Assembly (NCBI RefSeq): GCF_002305875.1
Contig: NZ_CP022098.1
Location: forward strand, 8,990,001-9,054,000
From: Cystobacter fuscus
GTDB lineage: Bacteria > Myxococcota > Myxococcia > Myxococcales > Myxococcaceae
Length of the DNA stretch: 64,000 bases
Reading direction: 5' to 3'
Shown here: piece after piece, positions 11,760 through 51,815 of the stretch
How positions within the stretch are numbered: position 1 is the stretch's first letter
Layout of the letters: the number at the start of each line of letters is the position of its first letter
The notes under the pieces: generated by a model
What the model saw: the letters and a program-made list of their open reading frames with translations, nothing else
The model's database searches: none
What the model was told of the DNA's origin: nothing
Translations under genes and position numbers: made by a program

Positions 11760-13352
11760 TCAGTGGGGGTGCTCGCTACTGCTCATCGAACCGGGCGGGA
11801 CGATTTCCTCCACCTCCATCATTCCCAGATCCTCATGGTCCAGGATGTGGCAGTGCAGCACGAACTTCCCGATGTATCGCCTGTAGCGGGTGCGCAGCCG
11901 GAAGGCCTCGCCCGGCCGCATGAAGAGGGTATCCTTCCAGACGTCCTTTCCATTGCCCAGCATCACCAGGAAGGGATTGACGTGGATGTGGAAGGGATGG
12001 CCCAGTGCCTGTGAGGCGGAGAGGTGCCACTCCTCCACCGACTCCAACTGGAGCCGGCGCGGCGGTTCGTTCGGGTCGTAGGGCCGGCCGTTGATCATGA
12101 ACATGGGCGGGACGACGCTGAAATCCACATCGAAGTGCGCCTCCTGGGTGCCAGTGACTTCCTCGTCCTTGATGGGCGAGAAGGGCACCAGCCTGGCCAG
12201 ATCGGCCGCGCTGGGCAGCGGCATCATGCCGCCGCTCCTGCCCTCCACCACGACGCGAGCCAGGACCTTGCGCGACTCCTCCTGGCCATGCAGCGAGTCC
12301 TTGACAGCGCTCGCCTCATCCACCAGCAGGTAGGTCTCCTGCACGGCACCGGCCCTCACCATCACGTCCACCCGGTAGCCGGGAAACATCTCCGTTTCCT
12401 GGACCGCGTCGAGGCGGCCGGTGGTGATGCCGTCGTGGGCGATCTGGTACTGCGTCATCACGGCCCGCGGATCGCTCTCGCGCTCGAGTCGGAGCCGGAG
12501 AGCCTCCATGGTGCCCGTGTGGATGAACCTCCAGCGCTGCGCCTCGCCCGGCCTCAGCTTGATGGTGGGCATGAGCTCCCCGTTGATGAGGGTGCGCAGG
12601 CCGGACCGCTCCCAGGCTCCCGGCATGAACGGGTCGTAGTTCTCCACCATGTTGATCTGCTTGCCCGGCGCTTCGGGATCCTCCCTCAGGACATAGGGGA
12701 TCTGCTCGAACACGAAGAGCCGCTCCCGGGCATTCCTGATGGCGGGAAGCTCGTCGATGTCGCCGCGGACGATGATGGCGCCGACCATGCCACTGGAGAC
12801 CTGCAAGGCCACCGAGCCGTGCTTGTGGGCATGGTACCAGTAGGTCCCGGCGGGGTGGTCCTCGGGAATCTTGATTTCATACTCGAAACGCTTCTGGGGA
12901 CCGATGGCCAACAGCACGTTGTCCGAGTTTCCCACGGGAGACACGTGCAGCCCGTGGGTGTGGATGTTGGTGGTGTTGAAGCCGTGCGGAATGTTGGGGG
13001 TGGGATGGAGCAGCCCCGCCTCCACCGGGGGAGGTTCCGGCGGAAGCTGGTTGTCCAGGAGGATGCTCAAGGTGGTTCCGGCCCGCACCTCGATGGTCGG
13101 TCCGACGAGCCCTCCATTGTAGGAGCGCAACTTCACGTCATCCCATTGCGTGCACTCGCCCTGCTCCATGGTCCGGCAGATACGATTGGTGGCGTACTTG
13201 ACCACGAGGTCCTGGGAAACCTTCTGTTGTTCGTACGGCCGTGGCCATGGCGTGGGCCATGGTTGTTGAGGAAGGGTGATCGCCGCGGCGCCCGCCATCA
13301 ACCCAATACCCAGCAGCGAAAGGCTGCTCTTTCTGAGAGACAAGAGTCCCAA
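11760..13352 (-). CDS. Secreted laccase-like multicopper oxidase
   Basis: The protein is about 530 aa from a TTG at 13352; no in-frame ATG precedes the signal peptide, so the exact start is uncertain. A hydrophobic export signal covers residues 5-25. All four copper motifs of three-domain multicopper oxidases are present: HTHG (131-134), YWYHAHKHGS (171-180), HPFHIHVNPF (about 468) and HCHILDHEDLGM (about 505), with Met as the likely T1 axial ligand. These enzymes oxidise phenols, aminophenols or metals with O2. Phenoxazinone synthase of this class couples o-aminophenols. Facing a 3,4-AHBA operon, the oxidase could act on its product, but it is convergent, not co-transcribed, so the link is only suggestive. 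Confidence 0.85.
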   Translation of the reverse strand: MGLLSLRKSSLSLLGIGLMAGAAAITLPQQPWPTPWPRPYEQQKVSQDLVVKYATNRICRTMEQGECTQWDDVKLRSYNGGLVGPTIEVRAGTTLSILLDNQLPPEPPPVEAGLLHPTPNIPHGFNTTNIHTHGLHVSPVGNSDNVLLAIGPQKRFEYEIKIPEDHPAGTYWYHAHKHGSVALQVSSGMVGAIIVRGDIDELPAIRNARERLFVFEQIPYVLREDPEAPGKQINMVENYDPFMPGAWERSGLRTLINGELMPTIKLRPGEAQRWRFIHTGTMEALRLRLERESDPRAVMTQYQIAHDGITTGRLDAVQETEMFPGYRVDVMVRAGAVQETYLLVDEASAVKDSLHGQEESRKVLARVVVEGRSGGMMPLPSAADLARLVPFSPIKDEEVTGTQEAHFDVDFSVVPPMFMINGRPYDPNEPPRRLQLESVEEWHLSASQALGHPFHIHVNPFLVMLGNGKDVWKDTLFMRPGEAFRLRTRYRRYIGKFVLHCHILDHEDLGMMEVEEIVPPGSMSSSEHPH

Positions 13353-13597: not shown

Positions 13598-14275
13598 TCA
13601 ATGGAGCCGTCGCGCTACCGCGCGCAGCACGGCGGATTCCAGCTCGGCCGGGGTGGGGCCCGAACTCTGCACACCCAATTCCGCTGCCAGCCCAGGGAGC
13701 GCATTGATGGCGAGGCCACCCACGAGGATGGGCAGAGCGGGGTCCAGCCGCTCGCGAACCTCCGCGACGGCCCTGCGAAGGGCGGGAATGTTGAAAAGCA
13801 TCGTCACCGACAAAGCCAGCACGTCTGGCAGCTCTCGCTCGAGGAGCCCCACCAGGCTGTGCGTGGGAAGGTTGGCTCCGAGGTACATCACGGTGAAGCC
13901 CGCCAGTTCCAGGAAGTCGGACAACAGGCGGGTGGGCATCTCGTGCATCTCCCCCTCGACGCAGGCCACCGCCACGCTCACTCCTCGGGAGGGCGAGGGC
14001 TGGGCACGAGAGAAGAGGTGGGCGAGCGCCACCTGGGAGACGGCGGTGGCCCGGTGCTCCTGGGCAATGCCGATCTCCCCCTGCTGCCAGAGCCGGCCCA
14101 GCTCTCGCTGAGCCGCCTGGATCACCTGACACTGGAGTTCCGTGACGGAAACACCCTGCGCCAAGGCCTCATCCAGGAGGCGCAGGGTGCCCCGCAGGTC
14201 CCCCGCCATCTGCTCGGCGAGATAGGACCCGAGCAGGCGAAGGAAGCGAAGCTCCGCTGGCTGGCTTTGTTCCAT
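13598..14275 (-). CDS. Stand-alone cobalamin-binding protein with CarH-type Wx9EH cap motif
   Basis: The protein is 225 aa and starts MEQSQPAELRFLRLLG; a longer open frame upstream covers the divergent kinase gene and was rejected. The N-terminal helical cap has W-QQGEIGIAQ-EH, matching the Wx9EH motif of AdoCbl photoreceptors of the CarH/LitR type. The C-terminal Rossmann-like half has GEMHEMPTRLL in place of the usual ExHxxG: the B12 lower ligand His is kept and the Gly is Pro. There is no MerR DNA-binding domain. It probably senses B12 or light and acts through a partner, perhaps the divergently transcribed histidine kinase 178 bases away. That coupling is inference. Confidence 0.78.
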   Translation of the reverse strand: MEQSQPAELRFLRLLGSYLAEQMAGDLRGTLRLLDEALAQGVSVTELQCQVIQAAQRELGRLWQQGEIGIAQEHRATAVSQVALAHLFSRAQPSPSRGVSVAVACVEGEMHEMPTRLLSDFLELAGFTVMYLGANLPTHSLVGLLERELPDVLALSVTMLFNIPALRRAVAEVRERLDPALPILVGGLAINALPGLAAELGVQSSGPTPAELESAVLRAVARRLH

Positions 14276-14453
14276 GATTCCCTGGCACGCGCCTCCTGAG
14301 AACCAAACATAGTCACGAGGATTGTCTTCGCGGGGTGGAGGAGGCCCTGGCGCCGCCCTGCCCGCCCCTGCCCCTTGCGTGCCCTGGGATTGGAAAGACT
14401 TTCCACCCACTCCATCTTGAGGGAGACCAGAGTCGCTCTGGTCGGGAGTTCTC

Positions 14454-15935
14454 ATGGGGGAGGGACAGGACATGCGCCGGCTCCCCTGGGAGACCGCTGG
14501 AAAGGTGATTTTCTCGGGGCTCGTCCTCCTGGGAGCCCTTGCCCTGGTGAATGTCGTGACCTCCCCCAGGCAGTCGGAGGGATGGAGCTTCCCGTGGGTG
14601 GCGGTGTTGGTGGCGCTGGCACTGGGCGTGGGGGTCCTGCTCGGCTCCCGACAACCAGAGGAGTCCTTGCCCTCCGAGGTGGAGAGGCGCGAGTGGGAGG
14701 GCCGATTCCTGAGCGAGGTAGGCGCGCGCCTCGCCTCGACGCTGGACCATGAGCAGACGCTCACGAACGTCGCCACGCTGGCCGTGGGTTCCCTGGCGGA
14801 CTGCTGCCTCCTCTCCCTGGAGGCCGAGGACTGGAGACCGCGGCGGCTGAAGGCCGTGCATCTCGATGCGGACAAGGCTCCACTCGTCGAGGCCATGGAG
14901 CGCACGGCGCTCGATCGGCGGGGCCCGCCCTTGCTCTCGTTCCCGCTGGAGCCGCGGCGGCCCTGGGTGCTGTCGGATGTGTCCTCCGCGAGCCTCGAGT
15001 CCCTCGCCCGAAGCGAGGAGCACCTCCGGCTCCTGCTCGAGCTGAACCCGCGCTCGCTCATGGGCCTGCCACTGCTGGTTCACGGACACTTCCTGGGCAC
15101 GCTCGTGCTCGTCTCCTGTGCTCCCCGCCACGCGTATGAAGAGGCAGACCTGCGGCTGGGAGAGGAGCTGGCGCGCCGGGCCGCGCTCGCGATCCAGAGC
15201 GCCCGGCTCTACCGGACCGCCCGGGAAGCCACCCAGGCGCGTGACGACGTCCTGGCCGTGGTGGCGCACGACCTGCGCAATCCGCTCAACGCCATCTCCA
15301 TCAGTGCCCAGACGTTGTTGAGACAGCGGACCATCGCCAACGACCCACAGCTCCAGGCTCCCTTGCGCATCATCCGCAGCTCCGTGGAGCGCATGAACCG
15401 GTTGATTCAGGATCTCCTGAACGTGAGCCGCATGGAGGCGGGCAAGCTGGCCGTGGAGACCTATCCGGAGCCCGCGGAGTCACTCCTCCAGGAAGCGCTC
15501 GAGGAGGCGCGCCCGCTGGCCTCGCGGCTCCAACTGAGCACCGACATCGCCGAGGTGCTGCCCGCGGTGCGCGTGGATCGGGAACGAATCCTCCAGGTCT
15601 TCTCCAACCTGCTGGGCAATGCCCTGAAGTTCACCCCGCCCGGGGGCCGGGTGACGCTCGGCGCCCGGGCGGAGGGAGCGGTGGTGCGCTTCTGGGTGAG
15701 TGATACCGGCCCGGGAATTCCCCCCGAGGCCCGTGAGCACCTCTTCGACCGCTTCTGGCAGATGCGGCACGGAGATCGACGGGGGGCCGGGCTCGGGCTG
15801 TCCATCGCCAAGGGGCTCGTCGAGGCGCACGGAGGGCGCATCTGGGTGGAGAGCGAGCCTGGCCACGGAAGTACCTTCTCCTTCGTCGTGCCCGTGGCGC
15901 ACGAGGCCCCTCCCCTCACTCACTCGGGACCGTGA
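14454..15935 (+). CDS. Membrane histidine kinase with GAF domain
   Basis: The protein is 493 aa from ATG 14454, after GGGAG; ATG 14472, after GGAGGGACAGGAC, is equally plausible. Two membrane helices (about 18-36 and 45-64) are followed by a GAF domain (about 85-250). The kinase core has H-box VVAHDLRNPLNAIS (His about 271), N-box SNLLGNALKF (about 383), G1 DTGPGIP (about 416), F-box LFDRFWQ and G2 GAGLGLSIAKG (about 444). It should autophosphorylate in response to a GAF or membrane signal. No response regulator is adjacent. It is divergent from the cobalamin-binding protein, which may share its promoter region. Confidence 0.88.
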   Translation: MGEGQDMRRLPWETAGKVIFSGLVLLGALALVNVVTSPRQSEGWSFPWVAVLVALALGVGVLLGSRQPEESLPSEVERREWEGRFLSEVGARLASTLDHEQTLTNVATLAVGSLADCCLLSLEAEDWRPRRLKAVHLDADKAPLVEAMERTALDRRGPPLLSFPLEPRRPWVLSDVSSASLESLARSEEHLRLLLELNPRSLMGLPLLVHGHFLGTLVLVSCAPRHAYEEADLRLGEELARRAALAIQSARLYRTAREATQARDDVLAVVAHDLRNPLNAISISAQTLLRQRTIANDPQLQAPLRIIRSSVERMNRLIQDLLNVSRMEAGKLAVETYPEPAESLLQEALEEARPLASRLQLSTDIAEVLPAVRVDRERILQVFSNLLGNALKFTPPGGRVTLGARAEGAVVRFWVSDTGPGIPPEAREHLFDRFWQMRHGDRRGAGLGLSIAKGLVEAHGGRIWVESEPGHGSTFSFVVPVAHEAPPLTHSGP

Positions 15936-49266: not shown

Positions 49267-49710
49267 GTGGCCGTAACGCTGCCGGTCCACCCCCTCAAGG
49301 GCGTGATGCTGCCGGTCGCCCGGTTCATCCGCAGCCAGGACGGTCGGCGCTACGTCGACGTGGAGTACCCTCCCGGCCGGTACATGCGACTGCCGCTCGA
49401 GTGGACGGACCGCTCCCCACCCCTCGTTCCGCCGAGCGTCGGTGGTCGCGCAGTCCGCCTCTCCGTCCCCGTTCTGCTCAAGCTTGCCAGCGCAGTGCAG
49501 GTGGCGCTCGGTCGCCCCCAGGGCTCATCAACCGCGCCCCTGTCCCACGGTGGACCTACGTTGACACATGCCAACGTGTCCACCCCAGAAATCCGGCCCG
49601 CCGTGGTCGGCACTGCCCGTGGCGGCAAGGCAGCAACTGCTCGGCACGTGGGCCGCCCTGCTGCACAAGGCGCTGCGCGCCGAAACCGTAGACGCGGAGG
49701 AAGGCGATGA
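49267..49710 (+). CDS. DUF5372-like protein, companion of serine recombinase
   Basis: The protein is about 147 aa from GTG 49267, immediately inside the left inverted repeat; the start is uncertain. VAVTLPVHPLKGVML and MRLPLEWTD are the two conserved blocks of DUF5372 (HPFHPL...G, and ...PxxWTD). The C-terminal half is Arg/Ala-rich and may be poorly conserved. Members are typically encoded just before transposase or recombinase genes. It overlaps the recombinase start by four bases. Function unknown, presumably mobility accessory. Confidence 0.6.
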   Translation: MAVTLPVHPLKGVMLPVARFIRSQDGRRYVDVEYPPGRYMRLPLEWTDRSPPLVPPSVGGRAVRLSVPVLLKLASAVQVALGRPQGSSTAPLSHGGPTLTHANVSTPEIRPAVVGTARGGKAATARHVGRPAAQGAARRNRRRGGRR

Positions 49711-51815
49711 ACGACAAGGTTCGAGCCACGCATCTGGAGCGTCGAGCGGTGGTGTATCTGCGCCAGTCCACGCTCAGTCAGGTCCATGAGCATCGTGAGT
49801 CCACGGCCCGTCAGTACGCCCTGCGCCAGCGTGCTCTGGAGCTGGGCTGGCCGCCCGAGCGCATTGAGATAATCGATGAAGACATGGGCCAGAGCGGTAC
49901 GAGCGCGGACTGGCGGGCGGGCTTCCAGCGCATGGCCGAGGAGGTCGCGCACGGACGCGTCGGCGCCATCTTCTCGCTGGAAGTCTCTCGCCTGGCGCGC
50001 TCCTCGGCGGACTGGCACCGGCTGCTGGACTTGTGCGGCCTGGCCGACGTGGTGCTGGTCGATGAACAGGCCGTCTACACTCCGCGCGACTACAATGACC
50101 GGCTGCTGCTGGGCCTCAAGGGCACCATGAGCGAAGCCGAGTTGTACTGGATGCGTTTGCGCTTGCAGGGCGGCAAGCTGTCCAAGGCACGGCGTGGTGC
50201 CCTCCACATCACGCCGCCCGTGGGCTATGAGTGGGAGGAGACAACGAGCCGGTTTCGCTTCGACCCCGACGAAGGGGTGCAGCGAGCCGTGCGCCTTGTT
50301 TTCGAGCGCTTTCGCCTGGAGGGCAGCGCCTATGCCGTGCTGCGCTACTTCATGAAGAACGGGTTGAAGCTGCCCGTGCGAGAGCCGGGCACGCACCAAT
50401 TGCACCCGGAGCCACCGCGCTACACCCTGCTGCTCTCCATGCTCCACAACCCCACCTACGCCGGTGCCTATGTCTTCGGGCGCAATGAGAGGCACATGGC
50501 GCTGGTGGACGGACAGTTGCGGCGCCAGCGCCGTACGCGTTTGCCGCGGGAAGCATGGAAGGTATGCCTGAAGAACCACCACCCGGCCTACATCAGCTGG
50601 GAGGAATACGAAGCCAACCAGAAGAGGCTCGCTACCAACCATCCCAGCTACCAGCAGCCGGACCAACGCGGTGCTGCCCGCGAAGGGAGCGCTCTGTTGC
50701 AGGGGCTGGTGCTCTGTGGCCGGTGCGGTCACCGGATGCAGACGGCCTACCGGGAGTCCGGGCATCCGTACTACGAGTGCCGCCGCATCACCGACAAGGG
50801 CATGTGCTGGACGGTGTCGGCCGCAGGCATTGACGAGGCAGTCGCCCGACTCTTTCTGGAGACAGTCCAGCCTCCGGAGATTGAGCTGGGCCTGGCCATC
50901 ACCCGGGAGGTGGAACGGCAGGCCCAGGAGGTAGGGCGTCAGTGGAAGCTGCGGCTGGAGCGGGCGCACTACGAGGCGCAACTGGCCGAGCGCCGTTACA
51001 AGGCGGTGGACCCGGACAACCGCGTGGTGGCCCGCACGCTGGAGCGTGAGTGGAACGAGAAGCTGGGCGAGTTGGAGGTGCTCGAGCGCGAGCACCAGCA
51101 GGTACTGCGGCGCGAGAAGGTGGAACTCACGAGCCAGGACAGAGCACGCCTGCTCGAACTGGCCAAGGACTTGTCGTACGTCTGGCACGCACGGAGCACG
51201 ACGAATGCCGAGCGCAAGAACCTGCTGCGGATTCTGGTGCGAGAGGTGGCGCTCAGCCCTGTGGAAGTCCCGGAGCGCGGGATTCACATCCAGGTGCTAT
51301 GGCAGACCGGTGCGTGCAGCGACCTGACCATTGCACGCCGCCCTTCCTACACGAGGGCTACCTCGCCCGAGACCATCAAGCTCATTGGCACACTGGTGGA
51401 GCAGAAGAGGACCGATAGGGAGATAGCGGCTGAGCTGAACCGAAGGGGGCTGCTCTCCGGAGTCAAGCGCGCCTGGGACAAGCAAGCGGTGCGCTGGGTG
51501 CGCAGGCGCTACGGCATCCACCGCCAGCCGGTGGGACGACGGCGAGGACGGCCTCGACAGCCGGAGCGCCGGGCTGACGGCCTGTACTCAACGCACGGTG
51601 TCGCCGCACTGCTGGATGTTACTGAGACAATGGTGCGCACCTGGGTCGAGAAGGGCTGGCTGCGATGTGTCGAGGGCGGCGGTCCGGGCACTCCTCGGTG
51701 GTACAAGCTCGATCGCTCGACACTCAAGCGGCTGAGGGCCGCCAAGGCCCAGGGAAATGGCTCCAGCGGACGCGGAGCTGCTCAAATAAGTGTGGAGGAA
51801 GGTGGGGCATTATGA
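49707..51815 (+). CDS. Large serine recombinase
   Basis: The protein is 702 aa. The N-terminal catalytic domain has [11 protein letters not shown] (nucleophile Ser in YxRxS), [18 protein letters not shown] and [14 protein letters not shown]. The recombinase domain is followed by a zinc ribbon (LCGRCGHRM...YYECRR...GMC), a coiled coil (about 400-490) and a C-terminal MerR-like HTH ([23 protein letters not shown]). That HTH tail and an excisionase-like end are unusual for phage integrases but known in transposon-borne recombinases. The stop (51813-51815) lies outside the right inverted repeat, so the last few residues are encoded by the flank. Confidence 0.9.
51779..51799 (-). repeat. Right terminal inverted repeat of serine-recombinase unit
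   Basis: TGCTCAAATAAGTGTGG (51779-51795) and four further bases mirror the left copy at 19 of 21 positions. It lies within the last codons of the recombinase. Confidence 0.65.

Follow-up and report, generated by a model that had tools for sequence, protein, structure and literature searches.

The question that this locus raises is what a cobalamin-binding domain (CBD) of the light-sensing type can control when it is encoded on its own. Described outputs of AdoCbl photosensors include DNA binding (CarH), action on a transcription-factor partner (AerR, PMC6199135), and action through fused domains, e.g., the diguanylate cyclase of photocobilins. In the 64,000-nucleotide stretch of Cystobacter fuscus DNA that we analysed (hereafter, the window), a gene for a CBD with neither a DNA-binding nor a fused output domain lies back to back with a histidine kinase gene (Table 1). 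We propose, with a probability of about 60%, that its product is a stand-alone AdoCbl light sensor with a photocobilin-type CBD, whose target in trans would be the membrane GAF histidine kinase encoded by the divergent gene.

Table 1. Features of the CBD–kinase locus (positions in the window; residue numbers refer to the encoded proteins).
Feature	Position	Strand	Basis
Stand-alone cobalamin-binding domain (CBD) protein, 225 aa, four-helix bundle and Rossmann fold	13598..14275	-	Pfam, phmmer, model
GxxxP motif (G133-P137)	13865..13879	-	motif scan
P114, Pro at the ExHxx(G/P) position	13934..13936	-	SasPcob alignment, published motif
GxxH motif; H111 is the expected lower axial cobalt ligand	13943..13954	-	aligned with SasPcob His108
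EH motif (E73-H74)	14054..14059	-	aligned with SasPcob Glu71-His72
GxxW (G60..W63), start of Wx9EH	14087..14098	-	aligned with SasPcob Trp61
Divergent intergenic region, 178 bp, with a 10-bp block at 14386-14395	14276..14453	.	comparison of pair loci
Histidine kinase, 493 aa: GAF (100-247), HisKA (H272, AHDLRNPL box), HATPase_c	14454..15935	+	Pfam, alignment

The gene is real, selected, and encodes a CBD and nothing else. Its frame stays open upstream of the ATG at 14275 (493 codons in total), and the four orthologues are likewise 225 residues long and begin, in the alignment, at this Met. Because this start Met is common to all five members of the clade (the window included) and dN/dS is 0.23–0.29 across all 10 pairs of these members, we consider the annotated gene genuine and under selection. 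A Pfam scan at E 0.001 returned B12 domains only, i.e., B12-binding_2 (residues 22–86, E 3.8e-12) and B12-binding (residues 99–200, E 7.1e-16), and no MerR domain. The absence of a MerR domain claimed in the preliminary description is thus confirmed. In the AlphaFold2 model (five-sequence alignment, pLDDT 88.9), the chain folds as a single CBD, with its final helix running to residue 224.

The motifs of cobalamin light sensors are in place. The same preliminary description had reported an intact Wx9EH and a kept B12 His ligand, and both are there, as W63-x9-E73H74 and as H111, which alignment sets on the cobalt ligand of SasPcob (in our numbering of SasPcob, the PDB sequence index equals the paper number minus six). 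The GxxWx9EH of the window CBD stands at the same alignment position as the SasPcob motif and arose in 2 of 20,000 shuffles of the sequence. The second motif is also intact (E109xH111xxP114-x41-S156xT158-x27-G186G187), so that the window CBD carries both Wx9EH and the published CarH-type motif D/ExHx2G/P-x41-SxT/V-x22-27-GG, in which Gly or Pro is permitted (PMC9304148). The replacement of the ExHxxG glycine by Pro, pointed out earlier, is therefore real, but it is no departure from the motif, since the published form allows it and the corresponding residue of SasPcob is also Pro; on the same grounds, degeneration was ruled out as an explanation of Pro114. The position is loose: Pro recurs in the Nannocystis and G008 rows of our alignment, AbPcob has Ser, CtMerR has Ala, and the orthologues of G010 and G030 have an Ala that fits neither form of the published motif. 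The residue after the Trp is Gln64, and Gln is found there in all five clade members and in SasPcob.

Four motifs, GxxW, EH, GxxH and GxxxP, have been proposed by SignatureFinder as the signature of light-responding CBDs; four tested proteins bearing it bound AdoCbl and were changed by green light, and a control protein without it bound hydroxocobalamin (OHCbl) only (PMC11796333). All four motifs (GxxH being G108-H111 in the window) are present in 5/5 clade members. We infer, with good support from these alignments, that the window CBD would bind and photolyse AdoCbl. The genome itself contains a match to the CobA/CobO/BtuR-family adenosyltransferases, which would supply this cofactor.

As for the kinship of the domain, a phmmer search against solved structures ranks SasPcob at the top (2.9e-27), ahead of AbPcob (8.9e-23), CtMerR (3.7e-21) and CarH (4.5e-10). 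The model likewise has SasPcob as its best fold match (Z 26.5, 1.8 Å, 207 aa), followed by AbPcob (Z 25.4), the methylamine corrinoid protein (23.0), CtMerR (22.9) and MetH (22.4 and 22.1), and then, lower, by AerR (7TE2, Z 20.8), CarH (about 19) and AppA-SCHIC (4HEH, 18.4). Because the methylamine corrinoid protein and MetH outscore CarH, fold alone cannot separate light sensors from enzyme CBDs; motifs and sequence score do. The closest solved relatives of the window CBD are thus the photocobilin CBDs, above CarH, in an order of clades that the trees leave unsettled. The description of the protein as a CarH-like cobalamin photosensor domain stands insofar as the domain is of the light-sensing AdoCbl type, but CarH is not its nearest kin, since photocobilin CBDs score higher. 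Membership of CarH itself was rejected: there is no MerR domain, the position that provides the bis-His partner holds a Gln, and the score for the CarH family NF052513 is 51 bits, where the cut-off stands at 400. Without a globin domain, the protein is not a photocobilin either. A CarH-type gene does exist elsewhere in the genome, with a MerR part recognised by eye and Wx9EH present.

On the other side of the intergenic region, HisKA with its phospho-acceptor His together with HATPase_c identifies a histidine kinase. It has two hydrophobic stretches (residues ~18–36 and 46–64), and the Pfam scan found no receiver domain in it. To see whether the GAF might be of the bilin-binding kind, its stretch was searched by phmmer, which gave weak matches only, to the GAFs of a dual sensor kinase and of DevS (best E 0.0016), and so no decision either way. 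Orthologues of the CBD (79–87% identity; next best 54%) and of the kinase (77–86%; next best 53%; best 16 candidates scored per genome, limit E 1e-110) occur in the same 5 of the 96 family genomes, the window genome counted, so that the pair is rare, and in 5/5 the two genes are divergent neighbours. The divergent arrangement with a GAF histidine kinase noticed from the sequence of the window is thus correct and extends to every pair locus. The five genomes belong to two genera, g1 (the window genome, G001 and G003) and g8 (G010 and G030). In the three g1 genomes, the pair is flanked by genes for DeoC, aspartokinase and a multicopper oxidase on one side and for a Kelch protein on the other; in G010, the surrounding genes encode an AMP ligase, a second kinase, YebC and cytochrome c552. 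No gene that flanks the pair in the window was found at the pair loci of G010 and G030. Since the two genes remain divergent neighbours in 5/5 loci while their flanks differ between the two genera, the pair is kept as a unit.

Adjacency to a kinase is weak evidence when taken alone, because the window genome is rich in kinases (at least 150 HisKA matches, with 150 scored of 266 candidates). The conserved pairing suggests light-controlled kinase signalling, and regulation of the kinase by the CBD in trans is a reading to which the comparison of genomes lends moderate support. In the region between the two genes, the block GGGATTGGAA (14386-14395) is invariant in 5/5 pair loci and could serve as a promoter or operator.

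Several other features of these loci were observed. The multicopper oxidase gene (11760-13352) lies downstream of the CBD gene on the same strand, after a gap of 245 bp, in the three pair-bearing g1 genomes, and it is not beside the pair in g8. The g8 pair kinases (L045:7558-9423 and L046:4712-6685) carry, after the membrane part and ahead of the GAF, a PAS domain missing from the window kinase. In two sister genomes, a second long kinase lies beyond the Kelch gene (L043:447-3146 and L044:10512-13196); its core is 47–49% identical to that of the pair kinase, and it is missing at that place in the window. Farther along the window, an ORF of 702 aa (49707-51815) has an N-terminus that resembles, by eye, a large serine recombinase.

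The relatives of the window CBD place the pair in a larger context, absent from the preliminary description, of sibling operons in which such CBDs go with a bilin-type globin and kinases. CBDs 46–54% identical to it are found at 56 further places in 55 family genomes, and in 55/56 cases a helical protein of ~230 residues is matched 11–66 bp downstream on the same strand (two of these matches are partial, one being split in two in G062 and one G077 copy covering the first 66 positions only). Mainly its fold points to this protein being globin-like. The top three matches of its profile are photocobilin chains, in their globin part, at weak E-values (0.022, 0.022 and 0.13), and single-sequence phmmer gave nothing useful. 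One member, modelled from a two-sequence alignment at pLDDT 81.6, best matches the SasPcob globin (Z 16.5, 1.9 Å, 114 residues), in a comparison where few matches extend past residue 120 and Foldseek E-values are weak (best 0.099); allophycocyanins and smURFP come next at Z 13–15, in a range where helical models may reach Z about 13–14 by common arrangement. Among 12 aligned members, the motif reads RGMC in 7, RGMS in 3 and HGMC in 2. BBAG-2 globins carry RGMC, two of them were shown to bind biliverdin and proved photoinert when taken alone, and Myxococcales globins adjoin B12-binding proteins (Rockwell et al. PNAS 2023, PMC10151467). The sibling operon most likely corresponds to these Myxococcales genes for B12-binding proteins and BBAG-2-type globins; the term "histidine kinase" does not appear in the main text of that paper (PMC10151467).

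Two multi-domain kinase genes lie near the sibling CBD and globin genes in the 12/12 loci used for the profile (on the other strand in Nannocystis), and kinases are also present at a thirteenth such locus, L069, i.e., in 13/13 loci read. Receiver domains were found in the kinases scanned for domains, which were both kinases at one locus and the first kinase at two more. The pair kinase is not orthologous to these sibling-operon kinases (about 30–40% identity in the core). The more distant stand-alone CBDs of G018 and G035 adjoin kinases as well. In total, a histidine kinase is close by in 20/21 stand-alone CBD loci with flanks read, which are related and not independent (5 pair loci, 12 operon loci, L057, L058, L061 and L069; the count leaves out the fusions L042, L059 and L060, the CarH-type L062, the truncated CBD of L063, and L041, which is the same contig as L057). 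The exception is L057, from G029, a 5.2-kb contig with no kinase.

The globin profile matched in 59/96 family genomes. No match to the sibling globin was found by tblastn in the window, by profile search at E≤1e-3 in the rest of its genome (150 of 200 candidates scored), or at 1e-6 in G001 and G003 (30 candidates scored in each); in these three genomes, the pair thus stands without a globin match. The operon and the pair do not simply replace each other: G002, of the same genus as the window genome, has the operon and no pair, and G010 and G030 have both. The sibling operon itself seems to decay or to change partners, since in four genomes (L064–L067) the globin gene lies near kinases and the sequence read around it gave no CBD match, and since a truncated CBD, a globin and a truncated kinase remain at L063. 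Two further proteins (L059:6335-7840 and L060:743-2122) carry C-terminal CBDs and an N-terminal part that is globin-like by eye, and so resemble photocobilins with the reverse domain order.

The phylogeny of stand-alone CBDs called for in the preliminary description was built from 40 rows, hand-picked from CBD matches and fetched loci (tree 1), and again without six long or doubtful rows, i.e., rel_L034, L027, L028, L030, L026 and TtCarH (tree 2). It succeeded in setting the pair CBDs among the sibling-operon CBDs, but did not settle their order relative to photocobilins and CarH, as both trees leave many CBD clades, these included, in an open fork. In tree 1, all five pair CBDs group together (100/100). 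The globin-linked CBD of Nannocystis is the one that this group joins (95/95 in tree 1, 93/90 in tree 2), within an 18-row clade made of the pair CBDs, the operon CBDs and the globin-less CBD of G029 (95/86 and 81/89, respectively); adding G008 to the 18 rows gives a clade with 91/93 in tree 1. Holding the 13 operon rows as one clade was rejected (AU p 0.02), a result that does not come from the pair alone, since op_G008 by itself also breaks the operon clade. The placement of the pair inside the globin-linked clade hangs on one Nannocystis row. From this placement and from the globins and kinases of the sibling operons, the window CBD seems to be a sensor of the photocobilin type whose globin was lost and whose kinase was exchanged for another. 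The simplest reading is that a CBD of the globin-linked lineage acquired an unrelated GAF kinase as its partner, the globin being lost, and that the locus is not a decaying operon.

How the sensor might work can be outlined on the model of its relatives. AdoCbl would bind base-off/His-on through H111, with W63 and E73/H74 expected from the alignment to line the adenosyl pocket. Green or blue light would cleave the Co–C bond, the adenosyl group would depart, and the dimer or surface state of the CBD would shift. The light state would probably be reached without the bis-His lock of CarH, since a Gln follows the Trp, as in SasPcob. The changed CBD could then gain or lose contact with the kinase, probably at its cytosolic GAF-HisKA part, and alter autophosphorylation; the conserved pairing is what suggests this step. 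More speculatively, an unlinked response regulator would pass the signal on.

Other explanations share the CBD with our reading and differ in what it does. It could be a light sensor with another partner, for example an AerR-like antirepressor, the kinase being a co-inherited and co-regulated neighbour. AerR does appear in the fold comparison (7te2, Z 20.8) and binds the transcription factor CrtJ (PMC6199135), and divergent genes often share control only, so that the two genes here may have just a promoter region in common. We find this explanation unlikely, however, as the pair stays together between two genera whose flanks differ, related CBDs also adjoin kinases in 20/21 loci read, and no such regulator is encoded among the six flanking proteins scanned. 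A CBD that signals to the kinase the amount or form of cobalamin, and not light, would agree with a fold that binds several cobalamins, and CarA of Myxococcus xanthus keeps its B12 motif while B12 is not needed for operator binding (PMC8156234). The conservation of W63, E73-H74 and the whole light signature in 5/5 clade members, set beside the signature-less control that bound OHCbl only (PMC11796333), makes such a sensor improbable.

Two further explanations would take the protein out of signalling altogether, and we give very little credit to either. Weak profile matches (TIGR02370, 42.6 bits; NF047996, 44.5 bits) and the fold match to the methylamine corrinoid protein (Z 23.0) could point to the corrinoid carrier of a methyltransferase system, but these scores fall far short of the 215.3 and 370 bits set as cut-offs for the two curated families, the six flanking proteins scanned include no methyltransferase, and the window CBD has the Wx9EH that the MetH of its own genome lacks. 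A functionless, decaying remnant of the globin-linked operon would account for the lack of a globin match in the genome, but scarcely for a dN/dS of 0.23–0.29, a full-length gene in 5/5 and intact motifs. Moreover, G010 and G030 hold both operon and pair, and in these genomes, therefore, the pair is no shrunken operon. We thus keep the stand-alone light sensor acting on the divergent kinase as the preferred reading.

Part of this picture is already known, namely, the chromophore chemistry, the fold, the AerR-type action on another protein, the CBD–globin neighbours of Myxococcales, and CBDs fused to GAF domains, which were found by database mining (PMC11796333). We found no paper on a CBD paired with a histidine kinase in the open PMC literature, outside which most subscription papers lie. 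The sensor is thus of a known kind, and its proposed wiring to a kinase would be new. If the proposed reading is true, the pair adds two-component signalling to the outputs of AdoCbl photosensors, provides a compact green-light switch working in trans, and offers a testable case of a photosensor changing partners. A wider scenario can be put forward tentatively, with odds that we hold to be short of even: a B12 photoreceptor would have shed its DNA-binding domain and its bilin globin to control a membrane histidine kinase in trans, the siblings would be split AdoCbl and biliverdin photosensors feeding hybrid kinases, and the pair would represent the exchange of the globin for a new kinase. Myxobacteria are non-photosynthetic and their fruiting bodies are stimulated by light (PMC11832031), so that an input of the CBD type could bear on fruiting.

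Compared with known systems, the photocobilins (SasPcob, PDB 8J2W/8J2X; AbDPcob, 8J2Y) offer the closest solved CBDs by sequence and fold. They share the W..EH and E/DxH motifs with the window CBD, and SasPcob also shares the Gln after the Trp and the Pro after the His motif, but the window CBD has neither their biliverdin-binding globin domain in its chain nor a fused enzyme. From the system of B12-binding proteins and BBAG-2-type globins described by Rockwell et al., the window locus departs in lacking a globin gene and in being paired with another kinase. CarH (TtCarH, 5C8A-F) has the same CBD fold, Wx9EH and His ligand; it differs by its MerR domain, and in TtCarH, His132 next to the Trp forms the bis-His light state, whereas the window CBD has Gln64 there. 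AerR is a stand-alone CBD, and the 205 residues of its chain agree with this. Sequence identity between AerR or AppA-SCHIC and the window CBD is 20%. AerR is alike in being a cobalamin photoreceptor with another protein as its target (PMC6199135); its partner is a transcription factor, whereas that of the window CBD is apparently a kinase.
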